The notes under the pieces are model-generated. The model was not told the origin of the DNA. It saw only the letters and a program-made list of their open reading frames with translations, and made no database searches. The position numbers and the translations under genes are program-made. 34,296 nucleotides of DNA from a virus. The stretch covers positions 1 through 34,296 of the IMG/VR virus record IMGVR_UViG_3300042459_000152; one strand, 5' to 3'. Below, piece after piece: positions 19,361-34,296 of this stretch (position 1 is its first letter; each line of letters begins with the position of its first letter).

Positions 19361-19627
19361 ATGGAAAAGCGAATAGTCAACATCAGTAAAGAGAAATTTG
19401 AAAGCATTGATTTTTCTCAATTTAAATGTGTTAAAAAGCATTTGTTGTCTCATCACGATATTGCAATCATTTCATTAATGAAAATGCCATACAAAGAGCG
19501 TAAAGATGTGCCGTCAGGGGTTTATTACAAAGATGGATTTCTCATTGAAGTAATATCTTTTAGAGGTAAATCTTCGGTTATTTGTAGAGAATTATTTAAA
19601 GCACAATGCGAAAAATATGAAGTTTAA
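19361..19627 (+). CDS. Small protein, unknown
   Basis: An 88-residue protein, first after the promoter at 19310-19340. Basic, with a helix-rich start (ISKEKFESIDFSQFKCVKKH) and a beta-like end (GVYYKDGFLIEVISFRGKSS). No family recognised. It overlaps the next gene by 11 bases. Confidence 0.62.
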   Translation: MEKRIVNISKEKFESIDFSQFKCVKKHLLSHHDIAIISLMKMPYKERKDVPSGVYYKDGFLIEVISFRGKSSVICRELFKAQCEKYEV

Positions 19628-19808
19628 AAAAGAAACAAGGGGAGGCACTCGGCAGGGGTCGGGTGCTAAACCTAAATACAACGAGCAAACTAAAACGGTT
19701 GCTTTTCGATGTCCATTGTCAAAGGTTGATGAACTGAAATTAGTTGTCAAGTCTAAACTTTCGGAGTGGTCTAAAGAAGCACTTAATATGATACAAGATG
19801 AAAACTAA
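19617..19808 (+). CDS. Small DNA-binding-like protein
   Basis: A 63-residue basic protein with a Gly/Arg-rich start (RGGTRQGSGAKPKYNEQTKT) followed by VAFRCPLSKVDELKLVVKSK. Similar small phage proteins look like ribbon-helix-helix DNA binders. Its C-terminus KEALNMIQDEN nearly repeats the end of the replication protein ([11 protein letters not shown]). Overlaps the next frame by 11 bases. Confidence 0.58.
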   Translation: MKFKKETRGGTRQGSGAKPKYNEQTKTVAFRCPLSKVDELKLVVKSKLSEWSKEALNMIQDEN

Positions 19809-20076
19809 AACAAATGTAAATATGAAAAACAAAAATTCAATTAACCAATTAGCCATTGCTTTTGCAAGTTTGCTGTTATGTACCGTTTTTTATTCATGTA
19901 TTGATGAAGAAAAAAGAAGTAAAAGAGAAAGAGAATATATTGAAAGGAAAGAGCTAATTTATAAAACAGAACATTGCAGGTTTTATTGTTTAGAACGTAA
20001 TGGACTTGAAGAGTGCAAGGTTGTTATTTGCGAATGTGATAGTGGGTATAACGCTGATGTATCTGTGTCATGGTAA
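19798..20076 (+). CDS. Lipoprotein-like protein spanning the left edge of the cassette array
   Basis: A 92-residue frame; an internal ATG at 19822 is an equally good start. It has a signal-like hydrophobic stretch (LAIAFASLLLCTVFYSC) with a lipobox-like FYSC, then a charged helix (EEKRSKREREYIERKE) and a Cys-rich end (CRFYC, EECKVVICEC). The left core site GTTATGTACC (19875-19884) falls inside the signal sequence, so the frame joins DNA from before the array to cassette DNA. It may be a chimera formed on insertion. Confidence 0.45.
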   Translation: MKTKTNVNMKNKNSINQLAIAFASLLLCTVFYSCIDEEKRSKREREYIERKELIYKTEHCRFYCLERNGLEECKVVICECDSGYNADVSVSW

Positions 20077-20160
20077 AATGGTACATAACGTTTTCGGGCT
20101 TGGCGAAGTGGCTTTTGTGCGTTGGCTTGTGTGTCGGAAAGCCATTTTGCCAAACCCGTG
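19876..20160 (+). mobile_element. Integron-like gene cassette 0
   Basis: Starts at a left core GTTATGTACC (19875-19884) and ends with attC-like site A, whose left core GGTACATAAC (20080-20089) is its exact inverse complement. Holds the C-terminal part of the lipoprotein-like frame. No complete attC precedes it. Confidence 0.6.
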
Positions 20161-20168
20161 TTATAAGC
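20080..20168 (+). repeat. attC-like site A
   Basis: About 85-89 bases. Left core GGTACATAAC (20080-20089), right core GTTATAAGC (20160-20168). Between them is a stem: CGGG (20095-20098)/CCCG (20155-20158), one unpaired base on each side (C20099, A20154), TTGGC (20100-20104)/GCCAA (20149-20153), an internal loop of four, TGGCTTT (20109-20115)/AAAGCCA (20138-20144), and a 22-base end loop. This is the stem with extrahelical bases and spacers seen in integron attC sites. Confidence 0.72.
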
Positions 20169-20235
20169 TGGCTGCGGATTATCAACCGAGAAACTTAATT
20201 TTGAAAACGAAACAGAAAAAATAAAAAATAGAGCG

Positions 20236-20424
20236 ATGGCAAAAAAAAATAGAAACAACATAGAAAATGAAATAGACCATAAATTAAGTGATTTGTATAG
20301 AAGATATTTCTTCAATAGGGATATGGGGGATATGTCAAGAGCAAATTATTGGTTAAGCAGAATTAAAGAATACGAACAATTAAACAACATAAAAAATGGA
20401 AACAACATTGCAGAAACTAATTAA
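20236..20424 (+). CDS. Small basic protein in cassette 1, unknown
   Basis: A 62-residue protein rich in Lys, Arg and Asn (KKNRNNIENEIDHKLSDLYR; RDMGDMSRANYWLSRIKEYE), helical. Preceded by an A-rich leader in cassette 1. No family recognised. Overlaps the next gene by 29 bases. Confidence 0.55.
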   Translation: MAKKNRNNIENEIDHKLSDLYRRYFFNRDMGDMSRANYWLSRIKEYEQLNNIKNGNNIAETN

Positions 20425-20650
20425 ACAAATAGACGATTTAATTAGAGATGAACAAAAAAACGGTGGGGATTGGGTCATCCCCTTTCAAAATGTGAAACAT
20501 AAAGCCGAATTGTTACTTAAAGATGAAAAGATAGAGCATCAAGACACTTGGGATGCTGCAATTAAAGCACACGACAACAGGGCTTATGTTCACGTAAGGT
20601 CTTGGTCTGATTTTGATGATTACTTTGAAGAAAGATTTACAAAAGAATAA
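20396..20650 (+). CDS. Small acidic protein in cassette 1, unknown
   Basis: An 84-residue acidic protein (TTLQKLIKQIDDLIRDEQK; WSDFDDYFEERFTKE). Its overlap with the basic protein before it suggests a paired small operon, such as a toxin-antitoxin or binding pair, but no known family is recognised. Orientation matches the attC sites, as in normal cassettes. Confidence 0.55.
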   Translation: METTLQKLIKQIDDLIRDEQKNGGDWVIPFQNVKHKAELLLKDEKIEHQDTWDAAIKAHDNRAYVHVRSWSDFDDYFEERFTKE

Positions 20651-20718
20651 AAAGCGGGCTGGCTATTTTTTATTTTTTCAATTACGAAACTGTCTTTGGA
20701 AAATGAATGTAGCAGCTT

Positions 20719-20856
20719 GCTTATAACGTTCCCACGCCTTGCGCTGTTGCTGATTGCGTGAGGATTATCTGTCAACCAAAAATAAAATAAATATGCGTAG
20801 AATAAACATAAAATTAAGAGGTTACCAGCAATGGCGCAAGACGTGTGTTAGCACCT
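20719..20856 (+). repeat. attC-like site B
   Basis: About 133-138 bases. Left core GCTTATAAC (20719-20727), right core GTTAGCACC (20847-20855). Stem: CACG (20733-20736)/CGTG (20842-20845), single unpaired C20737 and A20841, CTTGCGC (20738-20744)/GCGCAAG (20834-20840), TG/TG spacer, TTGCTG (20747-20752)/CAGCAA (20826-20831): 17 pairs. The 73-base end loop holds a leader and an ATG (20791). Spacings from core to stem are the same as in site A. Confidence 0.75.
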
Positions 20857-21521
20857 GTTGTTTTTTTGTCAATGCGAAGTGGTATCATTTTGTCCCGCTA
20901 ATAATGTGTCCTTACCAATGGTTATTATATTTTGCTTGGTCAACTCCGATACAACTTGTGTTAAGCTGTCTATGGTCATTTCTTTTTGTTTCAACTCTGT
21001 TTTTTTTGTATCTGTATTATAAAATTGATAAATGTTTAATGAAACAGAAAAAACAAAACCAATGATTAATATTATTTTGTCAACGATTTCAAGTTTTGTC
21101 TTAGTGCGTTCTAATGTTTTGTCTGATCGTGTAATTGATTGTTCATGCTTATGCTTGTCAACTGCATTATTATATTCTTTCAGTTTATTTATACCTAAGT
21201 CTGTAAGTTTGTTTTCGTTGTCAATAAAGCGATTATTATGTAACGATTGGAAAACTTTTAAAAAGTCGTCCCAAGAAAGCATTGATTCTATTTTTTTATG
21301 CATGTCTTGGTATGATAATTTTGTATTTTCTTTGTCACTAAGTAGTGCCAAAACTATGGATGTTTTATCGTCAATCATGTCGTCTTATACAATAGGTGCT
21401 AACGGTTTGCAGCTAAACGAGGTGGCTGATTATACCTCGAAACTTAATTAAGAAAACAAAATTATGAATACAGACAAAACTTCATTAGAAAACGAAAGCC
21501 AGCCATCTTGTTTAGGTGCTG
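20848..21521 (+). mobile_element. Integron-like gene cassette 2 (gene inverted)
   Basis: Starts after the G of the right core GTTAGCACCT (20847-20856) and ends in site C, whose left core AGGTGCTAAC (21394-21403) is the exact inverse complement (14 of 15 with the flank). Its gene is on the minus strand, opposite to the usual cassette orientation. Confidence 0.68.
20869..21378 (-). CDS. Membrane-anchored winged-helix-like protein in cassette 2 (only minus-strand gene)
   Basis: A 169-residue protein. Residues 1-70 look winged-helix-like (DDKTSIVLALLSDKENTKLS; FLKVFQSLHNNRFIDNENK; LTDLGINKLKEYN). A charged helix follows (residues 75-98), then one membrane helix at about 99-120 (KIILIIGFVFSVSLNIYQFY), and a Lys/Thr-rich coiled-coil end. 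The layout is host-like rather than phage-like. It lies wholly within cassette 2, opposite to every other gene, which supports recent capture. Function unknown; a membrane regulator or defence component is possible. Confidence 0.6.
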   Translation of the reverse strand: MIDDKTSIVLALLSDKENTKLSYQDMHKKIESMLSWDDFLKVFQSLHNNRFIDNENKLTDLGINKLKEYNNAVDKHKHEQSITRSDKTLERTKTKLEIVDKIILIIGFVFSVSLNIYQFYNTDTKKTELKQKEMTIDSLTQVVSELTKQNIITIGKDTLLAGQNDTTSH

Positions 21522-21530
21522 TTATACGCA
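21394..21530 (+). repeat. attC-like site C
   Basis: About 131-137 bases. Left core AGGTGCTAAC (21394-21403), right core GTTATACGCA (21521-21530). Stem: GCA/TGC, an unpaired G-G (21412/21516), CTAAAC (21413-21418)/GTTTAG (21510-21515), four further pairs including two G-T, and TGGCTG (21423-21428)/CAGCCA (21500-21505): about 19 pairs. The 71-base loop contains a leader and the ATG at 21464. Confidence 0.72.
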
Positions 21531-21679
21531 GTTTTCCTGACAATGTTGAAATATGGAAATGGTGGCAAACACAGAAATTTCAAAAAGAACAAGGTGAGCA
21601 AGAGTACACAATGATTTATGAAATTGACTTACCTAAGATACTCAAAGCATTTACGGAGCAGTTTCCAAATTGCGTATAA
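21464..21679 (+). CDS. Small protein translated from the attC C loop into cassette 3
   Basis: A 71-residue frame. Its ATG lies in the loop of attC-like site C; it crosses the recombination point within the right core (GCTGTTATACGC) and stops with TAA inside the next core (21677-21679). The cassette part (FPDNVEIWKWWQTQKFQKEQ, then YEIDLPKILKAF) has no other good start except an internal ATG at 21611. So the attC may lend its start codon to the cassette gene. Product not recognised. Confidence 0.42.
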   Translation: MNTDKTSLENESQPSCLGAVIRSFPDNVEIWKWWQTQKFQKEQGEQEYTMIYEIDLPKILKAFTEQFPNCV

Positions 21680-21680
21680 C
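21522..21680 (+). mobile_element. Integron-like gene cassette 3 (attC truncated)
   Basis: Begins after the G of the right core GTTATACGCA (21521-21530) and ends with the inverse core TGCGTATAAC (21671-21680). No attC stem follows; the phage promoter starts two bases later. This is the right border of the array. Confidence 0.6.
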
Positions 21681-21681
21681 T

Positions 21682-21712
21682 ATTGGATATAAGAACTTTT
21701 ATTATAAATTTG
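21682..21712 (+). promoter_or_regulatory. Bacteroidota-type promoter after the cassette array
   Basis: ATTG (21682-21685; 3 of 4 to TTTG), exactly 19 bases, TAAATTTG (21705-21712; full match to TAnnTTTG). The ATG at 21722 lies only 10 bases after the -7 element, so the transcript would have almost no leader. Confidence 0.62.
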
Positions 21713-21721
21713 TAGCTATAA

Positions 21722-21937
21722 ATGAAAGATTTAATTATAATAAGATATACTTTTGAACCATACTTTAGTGGCTATTATGAAGATGGAAACTGGTATAATA
21801 AAGATGGCAAAAAAATAAACAAGCGTAGCTACAATGGCTGCATCTGTATTCAAGATGGGCAGCGCAGATATGGAATGAAAAAACTTAAAACATTTGCAAA
21901 AAAAATAGAAACAATAAAAACTAAATTACCATTTTAA
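21722..21937 (+). CDS. Small protein, unknown
   Basis: A 71-residue basic protein with many Tyr and Gly residues (YTFEPYFSGYYEDGNWYNKD; RSYNGCICIQDGQRRYG). Directly behind a promoter and possibly translated with little or no leader. No family recognised. Confidence 0.58.
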   Translation: MKDLIIIRYTFEPYFSGYYEDGNWYNKDGKKINKRSYNGCICIQDGQRRYGMKKLKTFAKKIETIKTKLPF

Positions 21938-21938
21938 A

Positions 21939-22649
21939 ATGAAAACAAACGACAACCACTACTTAACTGCACTCAACTCAAAACTAATCGTTGATATGCA
22001 GCAACAAGAATTAAAAGACCGAGTGATTAAAGTACTTGCTAAGACTTACATTGACTGCGGAAAAGTCATTGAATCAAAGGAATTAATCAGCCTATCCAAT
22101 GGAGTGATTAACGAAATTAAGCGATACTTTATAAACTTAAAGATTGATGAACTTGACTTATGCTTCCAAAATGGAGTGAGAAAAGTATATGGCGAATACT
22201 TTGGTTTAAACATCGTTACATTTCACCAGTGGATTAAGTCCTTCATGGCTGAAGAAAAACGCTTAAAAGCTATTAAAATACGTTCTACACCAAGAATTGA
22301 ACCTATTAAGGAATACAGCGCAGAGGATAAGCTAAGAATTCGAGATGAATTTATGAATCATGCTAAATCTACTTATAAAAAAACTGGTCATTTTGGATTA
22401 TATGAACCAAGCATAGGTGACATTTATAAGATTTTAGTAGATACGAATGAGGTAAGTAATATCGAATTTAACGCTAATATGCAGGAGGCTTATGATTATG
22501 TATTAGAAGACTTAGAATATCAGTCTAAAACCAATGATTTATTATTGCGCAGAAAGCTAAGAGCGAAGATTGAAACGCTGACAATAGAATCAAAAGAAGT
22601 GATTAACATGGCAAAACAAATAACAATAGAAGACTTATGGAATCAATAA
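21939..22649 (+). CDS. Conserved early phage protein, possibly replication-related
   Basis: A 236-residue mostly helical, charged protein. A central block (NGVRKVYGEYFGLNIVTFHQWIKSFM) matches a family I have met in Bacteroidota phages near replication genes: a helix pair with KVYGEYFGLN and TFHQWIK. No catalytic motif is visible. A helicase loader or replication accessory is possible but unproven. Its end overlaps the MazG-like gene by 13 bases. Confidence 0.55.
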   Translation: MKTNDNHYLTALNSKLIVDMQQQELKDRVIKVLAKTYIDCGKVIESKELISLSNGVINEIKRYFINLKIDELDLCFQNGVRKVYGEYFGLNIVTFHQWIKSFMAEEKRLKAIKIRSTPRIEPIKEYSAEDKLRIRDEFMNHAKSTYKKTGHFGLYEPSIGDIYKILVDTNEVSNIEFNANMQEAYDYVLEDLEYQSKTNDLLLRRKLRAKIETLTIESKEVINMAKQITIEDLWNQ

Positions 22650-33189: not shown

Positions 33190-34296
33190 ATGGCAGAAGA
33201 AAAGGTAATATTAGAAACAGAGGTTAAACTCGGTAACTCGACCAACTCGGTTAAGAGTTTAAAGGCAGAGTTAAGACAAGTAACAAATGAACTTGCAAAT
33301 TTAGATGCAGGTAGTGCTGAGTTTGTTAAAATGGCACAAAGAGCAGGAGAATTAAGAGATAGGATTGATGATACTAAAAACGCAATCAATGCTTTTAATC
33401 CCGAAAAGAAATTTCAAGCATTAGCAGATACAATGGGTATTGCCGTTAATGGTTTTACTGCTATTCAGGGCGGTATGGCACTATTTGGAGCAGAGAATAA
33501 AAACCTGCAAGAAGTAATGGCTAAAACGCAAGGTGCAATAGCATTAGCAACGGGATTAAATGGGTTAATGGGGATGAAAGATACCTTTGTTAATTTAGGC
33601 GGTCAAGTTAAAAACATGATACCTATATTAAGGTCATTTAGTTCTGCAATGATTGGAGCATTGACTGGAGGGATTGCTATTGCTATAACTTTAATTATTG
33701 CATATTGGAAAGATTTAAAAGAATTAGTGACAGGAACAACCGAAGCAGTCATATTAAGTAATGAACAAATAGCTGAATCAACTAAAAAAGGTCATGATGA
33801 ATTTAAGAAGGCAGCCAATGAAAGAACAGCGATAGCAGAACGTGAAGCTAAGTTAAAATATGATGGACAAAAGTTAGATGAAGAACTTGCTAAAATTGAC
33901 AGACAAAGAAAGATTGATGAAGCGGTTGCAAGTGGTAAATTAGCGAGTGAAAAAAAGCTAATCGAAGATGAATACAACAAGTCAATTAAAGATATAAGAG
34001 AGAAATATTCAAAGATTGAAAAGGATAAGGCAAAGACCGACAAGGATAAACAAGAAAAGGATGAAAAAACAAAAAGAGATAGGGAAGAGAAATTATTAGA
34101 GGACAAAAAAAGACAGCAAGAAGAACTCATTGCAAGAACTGAAAAAGAATATACCGATACAAATAAGTTAACAGATGAGTTTTATAAAAAGGAAGAATTA
34201 GCATTAATTCGAAGTGGTGCAACTGAAGAAGAAATAAAAAAAGGTCAACAAGAAATTGAGATTAAAGACCTAGAACAAATGATACGGCGACCACCG
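33190..34296 (+). CDS. Tail tape measure protein, N-terminal part (continues at 1-833)
   Basis: Starts at ATG 33190. N-terminal region SVKSLKAELRQVTNELANLD matches the conserved start of tape measure proteins in Bacteroidota phages (ELR coiled coil), then GALTGGIAIAITLIIAYWKDL is a hydrophobic segment near residues 155-175, then a long Lys/Glu coiled coil. It runs off the contig end into repeated genome (34154-34279) and adapter. Combined with 1-833 it has 598 residues; by the usual ~1.5 angstrom per residue that would set a tail of about 90 nm. Confidence 0.8.
   Translation, partial: MAEEKVILETEVKLGNSTNSVKSLKAELRQVTNELANLDAGSAEFVKMAQRAGELRDRIDDTKNAINAFNPEKKFQALADTMGIAVNGFTAIQGGMALFGAENKNLQEVMAKTQGAIALATGLNGLMGMKDTFVNLGGQVKNMIPILRSFSSAMIGALTGGIAIAITLIIAYWKDLKELVTGTTEAVILSNEQIAESTKKGHDEFKKAANERTAIAEREAKLKYDGQKLDEELAKIDRQRKIDEAVASGKLASEKKLIEDEYNKSIKDIREKYSKIEKDKAKTDKDKQEKDEKTKRDREEKLLEDKKRQQEELIARTEKEYTDTNKLTDEFYKKEELALIRSGATEEEIKKGQQEIEIKDLEQMIRRPP
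34154..34279. repeat. 126-bp terminal repeat of the contig start
   Basis: Bases 34154-34279 equal bases 1-126 without a mismatch. Identity ends where the adapter begins. It shows the contig is a closed circle of about 34,153 bp read past its start, or a circularly permuted genome; it is not a biological repeat within the circle. Confidence 0.93.
34278..34296 (+). other. Illumina P5 adapter sequence at the contig end
   Basis: The last 19 bases read AATGATACGGCGACCACCG, the start of the Illumina P5 adapter. This is a library artefact, not phage DNA, and should be removed before joining the ends. Confidence 0.95.

Follow-up and report, generated by a model that had tools for sequence, protein, structure and literature searches.

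The window, as we call the whole 34,296-nucleotide IMG/VR virus record analysed here, carries a row of four gene cassettes between two phage genes. We judge it very likely that this row is a CALIN, an integrase-free cluster of attC sites, held at a fixed attI-like phage site, that its cassettes are exchanged by a tyrosine recombinase acting in trans, and that they are mostly reversed accessory genes expressed by read-through. The preliminary description of this DNA had known of no well-described case in a tailed phage, a claim that has to be withdrawn: phage CALINs, some of them from lytic phages, appeared in print in 2023 together with recombination assays (Qi et al., PMC9892861). According to the accessible part of that article, 17 CALINs were present in 10,705 genomes, and five of the six phage attCs tested recombined with attI1 via IntI1. 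As far as that part goes, the arrays described here resemble the published ones in being integrase-free attC clusters in phage genomes with DNA methyltransferase cargo, but differ from them in same-site turnover, in cassette sharing among unrelated phages and in reversed ORF polarity. Our scanner found no attC of the window's family in Polaribacter phage P12002L, whose attCs have been assayed. A literature search, with most subscription journals outside its coverage, returned nothing on cassette turnover at one site within a phage lineage, on reversed polarity or on an array recombinase in phages. The same-site turnover, the reversed polarity and an array-adjacent recombinase without the IntI insert in viral records go beyond the known phage attC clusters.

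Gene cassettes and attC sites in a phage record

Genes for a portal, a head-maturation protease and a glycosyltransferase are present in the window, in keeping with the earlier placement of the array inside a tailed phage. The window is a small tailed phage, and its host, judging by its relatives and its attC family, is probably a member of the Bacteroidota. Its nearest annotated isolates, the Nonlabens phages P12024S and P12024L, are remote (22–23% in the portal and in an 867-aa protein), and there are dozens of near relatives in IMG/VR. A search of annotated phages for the array gave no match. The record had also been called a whole circle, which is unsupported: it has no terminal repeat of at least 20 b, and its last 19 b (34278–34296) read AATGATACGGCGACCACCG, which we take to be the Illumina P5 adapter and hence a sequencing artefact. 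The record may be incomplete, which bears on the absence of an integrase from its 34,296 b (PF00589: 0 matches), an absence that the preliminary description had also reported.

The four units have cores that are exact inverses over 9–10 b, as had been claimed (Table 1). Among the 644 GTTA...TAAC pairs lying 120–800 b apart in the window, 10 b of complementarity was reached by three, all in the array, and 9 b by two, one of them in the array; this count bears out the claim that the pairing goes with the cassette and not with the site. As in gene cassettes, R'' and R' are complementary within each of the four, with the crossover at G^TT. An attC scanner written for this analysis found hairpins at 20087–20162 (score 30.9), 20725–20849 (30.1) and 21401–21523 (28.9), against a maximum of 19.2 in five Markov shuffles of the window. 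The proposed check of the array with an attC covariance model was carried out with R1, a model whose 16 source attCs all came from Bacteroidia genomes; of its 21 pairs, 17 show variation on both sides, a count that is partly circular as the attCs were picked by arm complementarity. R1 was run with default filters, since turning them off lost attC D with its long loop; it matched two sites, both on the minus strand at E of about 4e-10, and had no further match at E < 10 anywhere in the 34-kb window. Together with the third, middle site found by the scanner, three attCs thus lie within 1.5 kb in a record without an integron integrase, and the original reading as an integron-type cassette array stands. 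This attC family is marked by AACA...CGTT and, a fixed distance away, by an A.C mismatch, both of them conserved. Rfam gave no match in the window, and we know of no attC family in it.

Table 1. Features of the cassette array and its flanks (window coordinates; + and −, strand)
Feature	Position	Strand	Details
Left-flank phage gene	19617–19808	+	
Cassette 1	19824–20088	+	Lipoprotein-like ORF 19824–20076; unit cores 19875–19884 and 20080–20089
Broken attC, kept half	19850–19878	−	AGCCATTGCTTTTGCAAGTTTGCTGTTA; first core, 19875, lies in the kept half
Core pair, unit 1	19875/20089		10 b, exact inverse
attC B, of cassette 2	20083–20166	−	R1 54.3 bits, E 4.8e-10; 98.8% to an attC in viral contig L175
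Cassette 2 (attC B + unit)	20089–20726		+ strand ORFs 20236–20424 and 20396–20650
Core pair, unit 2	20160/20727		9 b, exact inverse
attC C, of cassette 3	20725–20849	−	Scanner 30.1, missed by R1; moves with unit 3 in L084
Cassette 3 (attC C + unit)	20727–21402		Minus-strand ORF 20869–21378, 169 aa
Core pair, unit 3	20847/21403		10 b, exact inverse
attC D, of cassette 4	21397–21527	−	R1 54.7 bits, E 4e-10
Cassette 4 (attC D + unit)	21403–21679		+ strand ORF 21464–21679
Core pair, unit 4	21521/21680		10 b, exact inverse; last core is the junction with phage DNA
attI-like/attG-like phage site	21680–21700	−	Crossover at 21679/21680; the minus strand reads TTCTTATATCCAATAG^TT
Bacteroidota-type promoter-like sequence	21683–21712	+	TTG-N19-TAAATTTG; belongs to the next gene, 21722–21937

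Our first reading, like the preliminary description, put the cassettes on the plus strand; it was dropped, as each attC stays with its right-hand unit in the blocks shared between contigs and R1 matches only the minus strand. Each cassette comprises an attC and the unit that lies to the right of it in plus-strand coordinates; the array therefore runs along the minus strand, and the earlier polarity of attCs and crossovers is reversed. Four lines of sequence comparison agree that the attCs would act on the minus strand. R1 matches this strand alone, both in the window and in relatives of like orientation. The flanking AACA...CGTT is arranged as in the Bacteroidetes integron L153, which has recombinase, attI and cassettes on one contig. 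Shared blocks consist of an attC and its right-hand unit: attC C with unit 3 in L084, attC D with unit 4 in L170, and an attC with the last unit of L088 in G022 and L181. Finally, in phages with the left end GATGAAAATACTTAAC, six different attCs follow directly on AA^C. With the attCs on the minus strand, cassette 4 adjoins the attI-like site and cassette 1, whose attC is half deleted, comes last. The other half of this attC and the crossover sequence AATACTTAAC are missing, though they are present in relatives with an intact left junction; relative L082 has the same broken junction, is 98.4% identical to the window over 19771–20090 and diverges right after GGTACATAAC. Cassette 1 can probably no longer leave via its broken attC; its ORF starts in the remnant and reads through the remnant's arm into the unit. 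The ORF of cassette 4 starts in the attC loop and stops at the TAA inside TATAAC. None of the four window cassettes has a confident Pfam match, the 169-aa product of cassette 3 giving a weak wHTH match below the cut-off (PF24409, E 5.5e-4).

Cassette turnover at one site and cassette sharing

The preliminary description would have been contradicted by the lack of an attC model hit together with an ordinary block of DNA without variation at the core sites in related phages; related phages do vary there, and it is not contradicted. Between the same two flanks, six contigs are cassette-free (L083, L086, L087, L090, L095 and L098), and in L083, L086, L087, L095 and L098 the end of the gene at the 19617–19808 position is closely joined to gene 21939–22649. 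At least 10 arrays of one to five cassettes, mostly different, lie between the same flanks (L082, L084, L088, L089, L092, L093/L094, L096, L097, L115 and L123). In relatives, six different attCs follow the left junction TACTTAA^CG, and the right junction AA^CTATTGGATATAAG stays the same next to different cassettes in L088, L089, L093 and L115 and at a second locus of L091. By eye, this constant junction, CTTATATCCAATAG^TT, is like the attI of integrase-bearing viral records, TATATATAATAG^TTA. The exact empty site ATACTTAACTATTGG was not found among the relatives, the cassette-free ones differing slightly at the junction. In L091, the second array (1820–2550) lies about 1 kb away and has the same right end, AACTATTGGATATAAGAAC.

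Cassettes are also shared beyond their backbones. Unit 3 of the window is 100% identical to L084 over 556 b with flanks at about 90–93%, and is thus more alike than the backbone. Cassette 4 (21400–21679) is 92% identical to DNA in viral contig L170, which has no other match of comparable identity to the window, and the last cassette of L088 (7267–7729) is 96.8% identical to DNA in the terminase-bearing G022; in the stretches compared, neither pair has other DNA of comparable identity. Whole cassettes hence recur at 92–97% across phages otherwise without DNA of such identity, and the ends of shared blocks and the junctions coincide with the crossover AA^C. Unit 4 lies beside a different attC in L115 than in the window, which simple cassette movement does not account for.

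In the mechanism that we propose, cassettes would be exchanged at this site, with folded attC strands being cut at G^TT. The minus-strand order is attI-like site, cassettes 4, 3, 2 and 1. Alternatively, the attC cluster could have been acquired once and now be an inert relic, its differences between relatives arising by ordinary homologous recombination and deletion. One attC is indeed broken, in a way common to L082, the 320-b block of 98% in common with that contig could reflect homologous exchange, and a search of the window and eight relatives found no array recombinase. We nevertheless regard this account as unlikely: many relatives break at AA^C with different attCs beyond, whole cassettes recur at 92–97% in phages without other DNA of comparable identity, and the ORF polarity, opposite to that of bacterial arrays, means that the array is not simply a piece of one. 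Insertion of cassettes at attG sites (Loot et al. 2024, as cited in PMC12901181) is similar to the proposed exchange in that cassettes enter at G^TT outside a resident integron, but differs in that here many relatives have their cassettes at one and the same phage site, in arrays of up to five.

ORF polarity and cargo

For each pair of neighbouring attCs, we compared the longest ATG ORF on the canonical attC strand with that on the other strand, a crude rule, and called polarity clear when the ORF was at least 1.5 times longer on one strand. Among 107 viral cassettes from 44 loci, all picked out by one attC pattern or by their relatedness to the window, 90 were clearly reversed versus one canonical, while 42 of the 55 cassettes from Bacteroidia genomes (12 loci) were canonical versus nine reversed, five of the nine on contig L297. 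The difference has a Fisher p of 6e-26, but cassettes of one array are not independent and the locus count is fairer: all 41 decided viral loci were reversed. Leaving out the window's own group gave 79 reversed to 0; records with a terminase gave 17 to 0 and those with an integrase 16 to 0. Reversal was also seen in LR756500 (L301) and LR745206 (L302), two deposited genomes of uncultured phages, 462 and 634 kb in size. The reversed frames are borne out by the enzymes that can be recognized in them, DNA methyltransferases among others. In roughly one in four clear cases (22/83) the start of the ORF lies within the attC of its own cassette, which is also so in window units 1 and 4. With canonical polarity, an ORF points to the attC of its own cassette; in the window only unit 3 is canonical by its longest ORF, and units 1, 2 and 4 are reversed. 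Counts of attC pattern matches, 69 versus 14, suggest enrichment in viral contigs, to be read as counts and not as a ratio as the base size of the viral collection is not given.

In canonical integrons, the choice of the bottom strand puts ORFs downstream of the Pc promoter (PMC8946536). Most phage cassettes would instead be "attC-first", with the ORF on the phage coding strand and opposite to the canonical integron strand. On this sequence-based view such ORFs would need read-through from phage genes, which is possible because they lie on the phage coding strand.

The cassettes may be interchangeable accessory genes, at least partly for counter-defence, as indicated by DNA methyltransferases and Tad6. 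Pfam searches of 107 phage cassette proteins recovered 10 DNA methyltransferases (seven N6/N4 methylases, two Dam and one C5 methylase), which make up most of the recognizable cargo, plus two YopX, one Tad6 and a few others; most proteins had no match. The anti-Thoeris protein Tad6 (Pfam E 7e-41) is encoded by a cassette on L297 (G084:C12, 2555–3172, minus strand) that adjoins a DNA methylase cassette. Because of its reversed polarity, this 9.4-kb contig, binned with a Bacteroidia genome, is probably a phage contig.

It is highly improbable that the array-bearing viral contigs are misclassified fragments of bacterial integrons. IMG/VR records are predicted and not isolated, and many of the loci lie on short contigs, but the window has the structural genes named above, a terminase exceeds the cut-off in 11 of the 50 records with arrays, the two huge deposited phage genomes named above also carry arrays of this attC family, and ORF polarity is unlike that of bacterial arrays in every subset. 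The idea that small, unrelated phage genes are merely separated here by terminator hairpins or repeats of another kind, with cores arising by chance, has a negligible probability: intergenic hairpins are common in phages and attC bodies are palindromic, but an independent bacterial attC model matches one strand only and the core pairing goes with the cassette, each of which already contradicts it; the conserved AACA...CGTT and A.C mismatch also speak against it.

Recombinases beside phage arrays

Because the window has no integrase, one would have to act on its array in trans. The preliminary description had called for a host integrase; a gene from outside would indeed be needed, but the host is not the sole possible source, as other viral records encode a recombinase next to arrays of this attC family. 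The tyrosine recombinase could thus come from the host or from a co-infecting phage that carries an integrase. A search of 50 viral records, 42 of which had been picked out by the attC pattern, identified a recombinase gene beside the array and divergent from it in four (G044, G033, G015 and G037), with products 44–49% (one 33%) identical to the L153 integron recombinase. By their position, these array-adjacent recombinases would be the enzymes that move the cassettes. The 246-kb, terminase-bearing G044 (L265, L267 and L268) has two recombinase genes and two arrays, of 6+ and 9 attCs.

The recombinases in viral records are tyrosine recombinases without the IntI-specific insert. Like the array recombinases of Bacteroidia, they lack the insert of about 40 residues between the GLR and LRH motifs: the distance from GLR..E to LRH is 82–88 residues in array recombinases, 129 in IntI1 and 94 in XerC/D, and a gap falls at the insert against the IntI4 structure. 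Their NCBIfam scores are below the IntI and XerA cut-offs. The additional domain serves to define intI (PMC2426708), and the window contains no integrase gene with this domain, by which an integron is recognized. Chromosomal arrays with a Xer-like recombinase lacking the insert occur on L153 and in the Bacteroidia genomes G203, G134, G077 and G065, most of these recombinases having an N-terminal extension of about 100 residues. Homologues of the array-adjacent recombinase are found in 18 of 25 attC-bearing Bacteroidia genomes, several of them close to an attC, which raises the question whether attC recombination depends on the IntI additional domain. In the integrase tree, four of five phage array recombinases split from 10 of 11 bacterial ones and all are apart from XerC/D; the tree gives no clear order between these and IntI1 or ordinary phage integrases. 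The phage arrays are like sedentary chromosomal integrons in attC structure, G^TT crossover, cassette units and, in integrase-bearing records, an attI by the recombinase, but unlike them in that the ORFs are on the opposite strand, the neighbouring recombinase has no IntI-specific insert and the window has no recombinase at all.

We lean slightly towards a broader proposal, that Bacteroidota phages keep an integron system of their own: a pool of reversed-polarity cassettes and a phage recombinase without the IntI domain, shared by large and small phages and serving as a store of counter-defence genes. Large phages would hold the recombinase, and small ones like the window only the attI-like site and cassettes. 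Integrons have been seen as bacterial devices, and phage cases until now as occasional captures. If phages do have their own pool, with a polarity fitted to phage transcription, they would gain counter-defence genes by precise one-step exchange and not by chance recombination.
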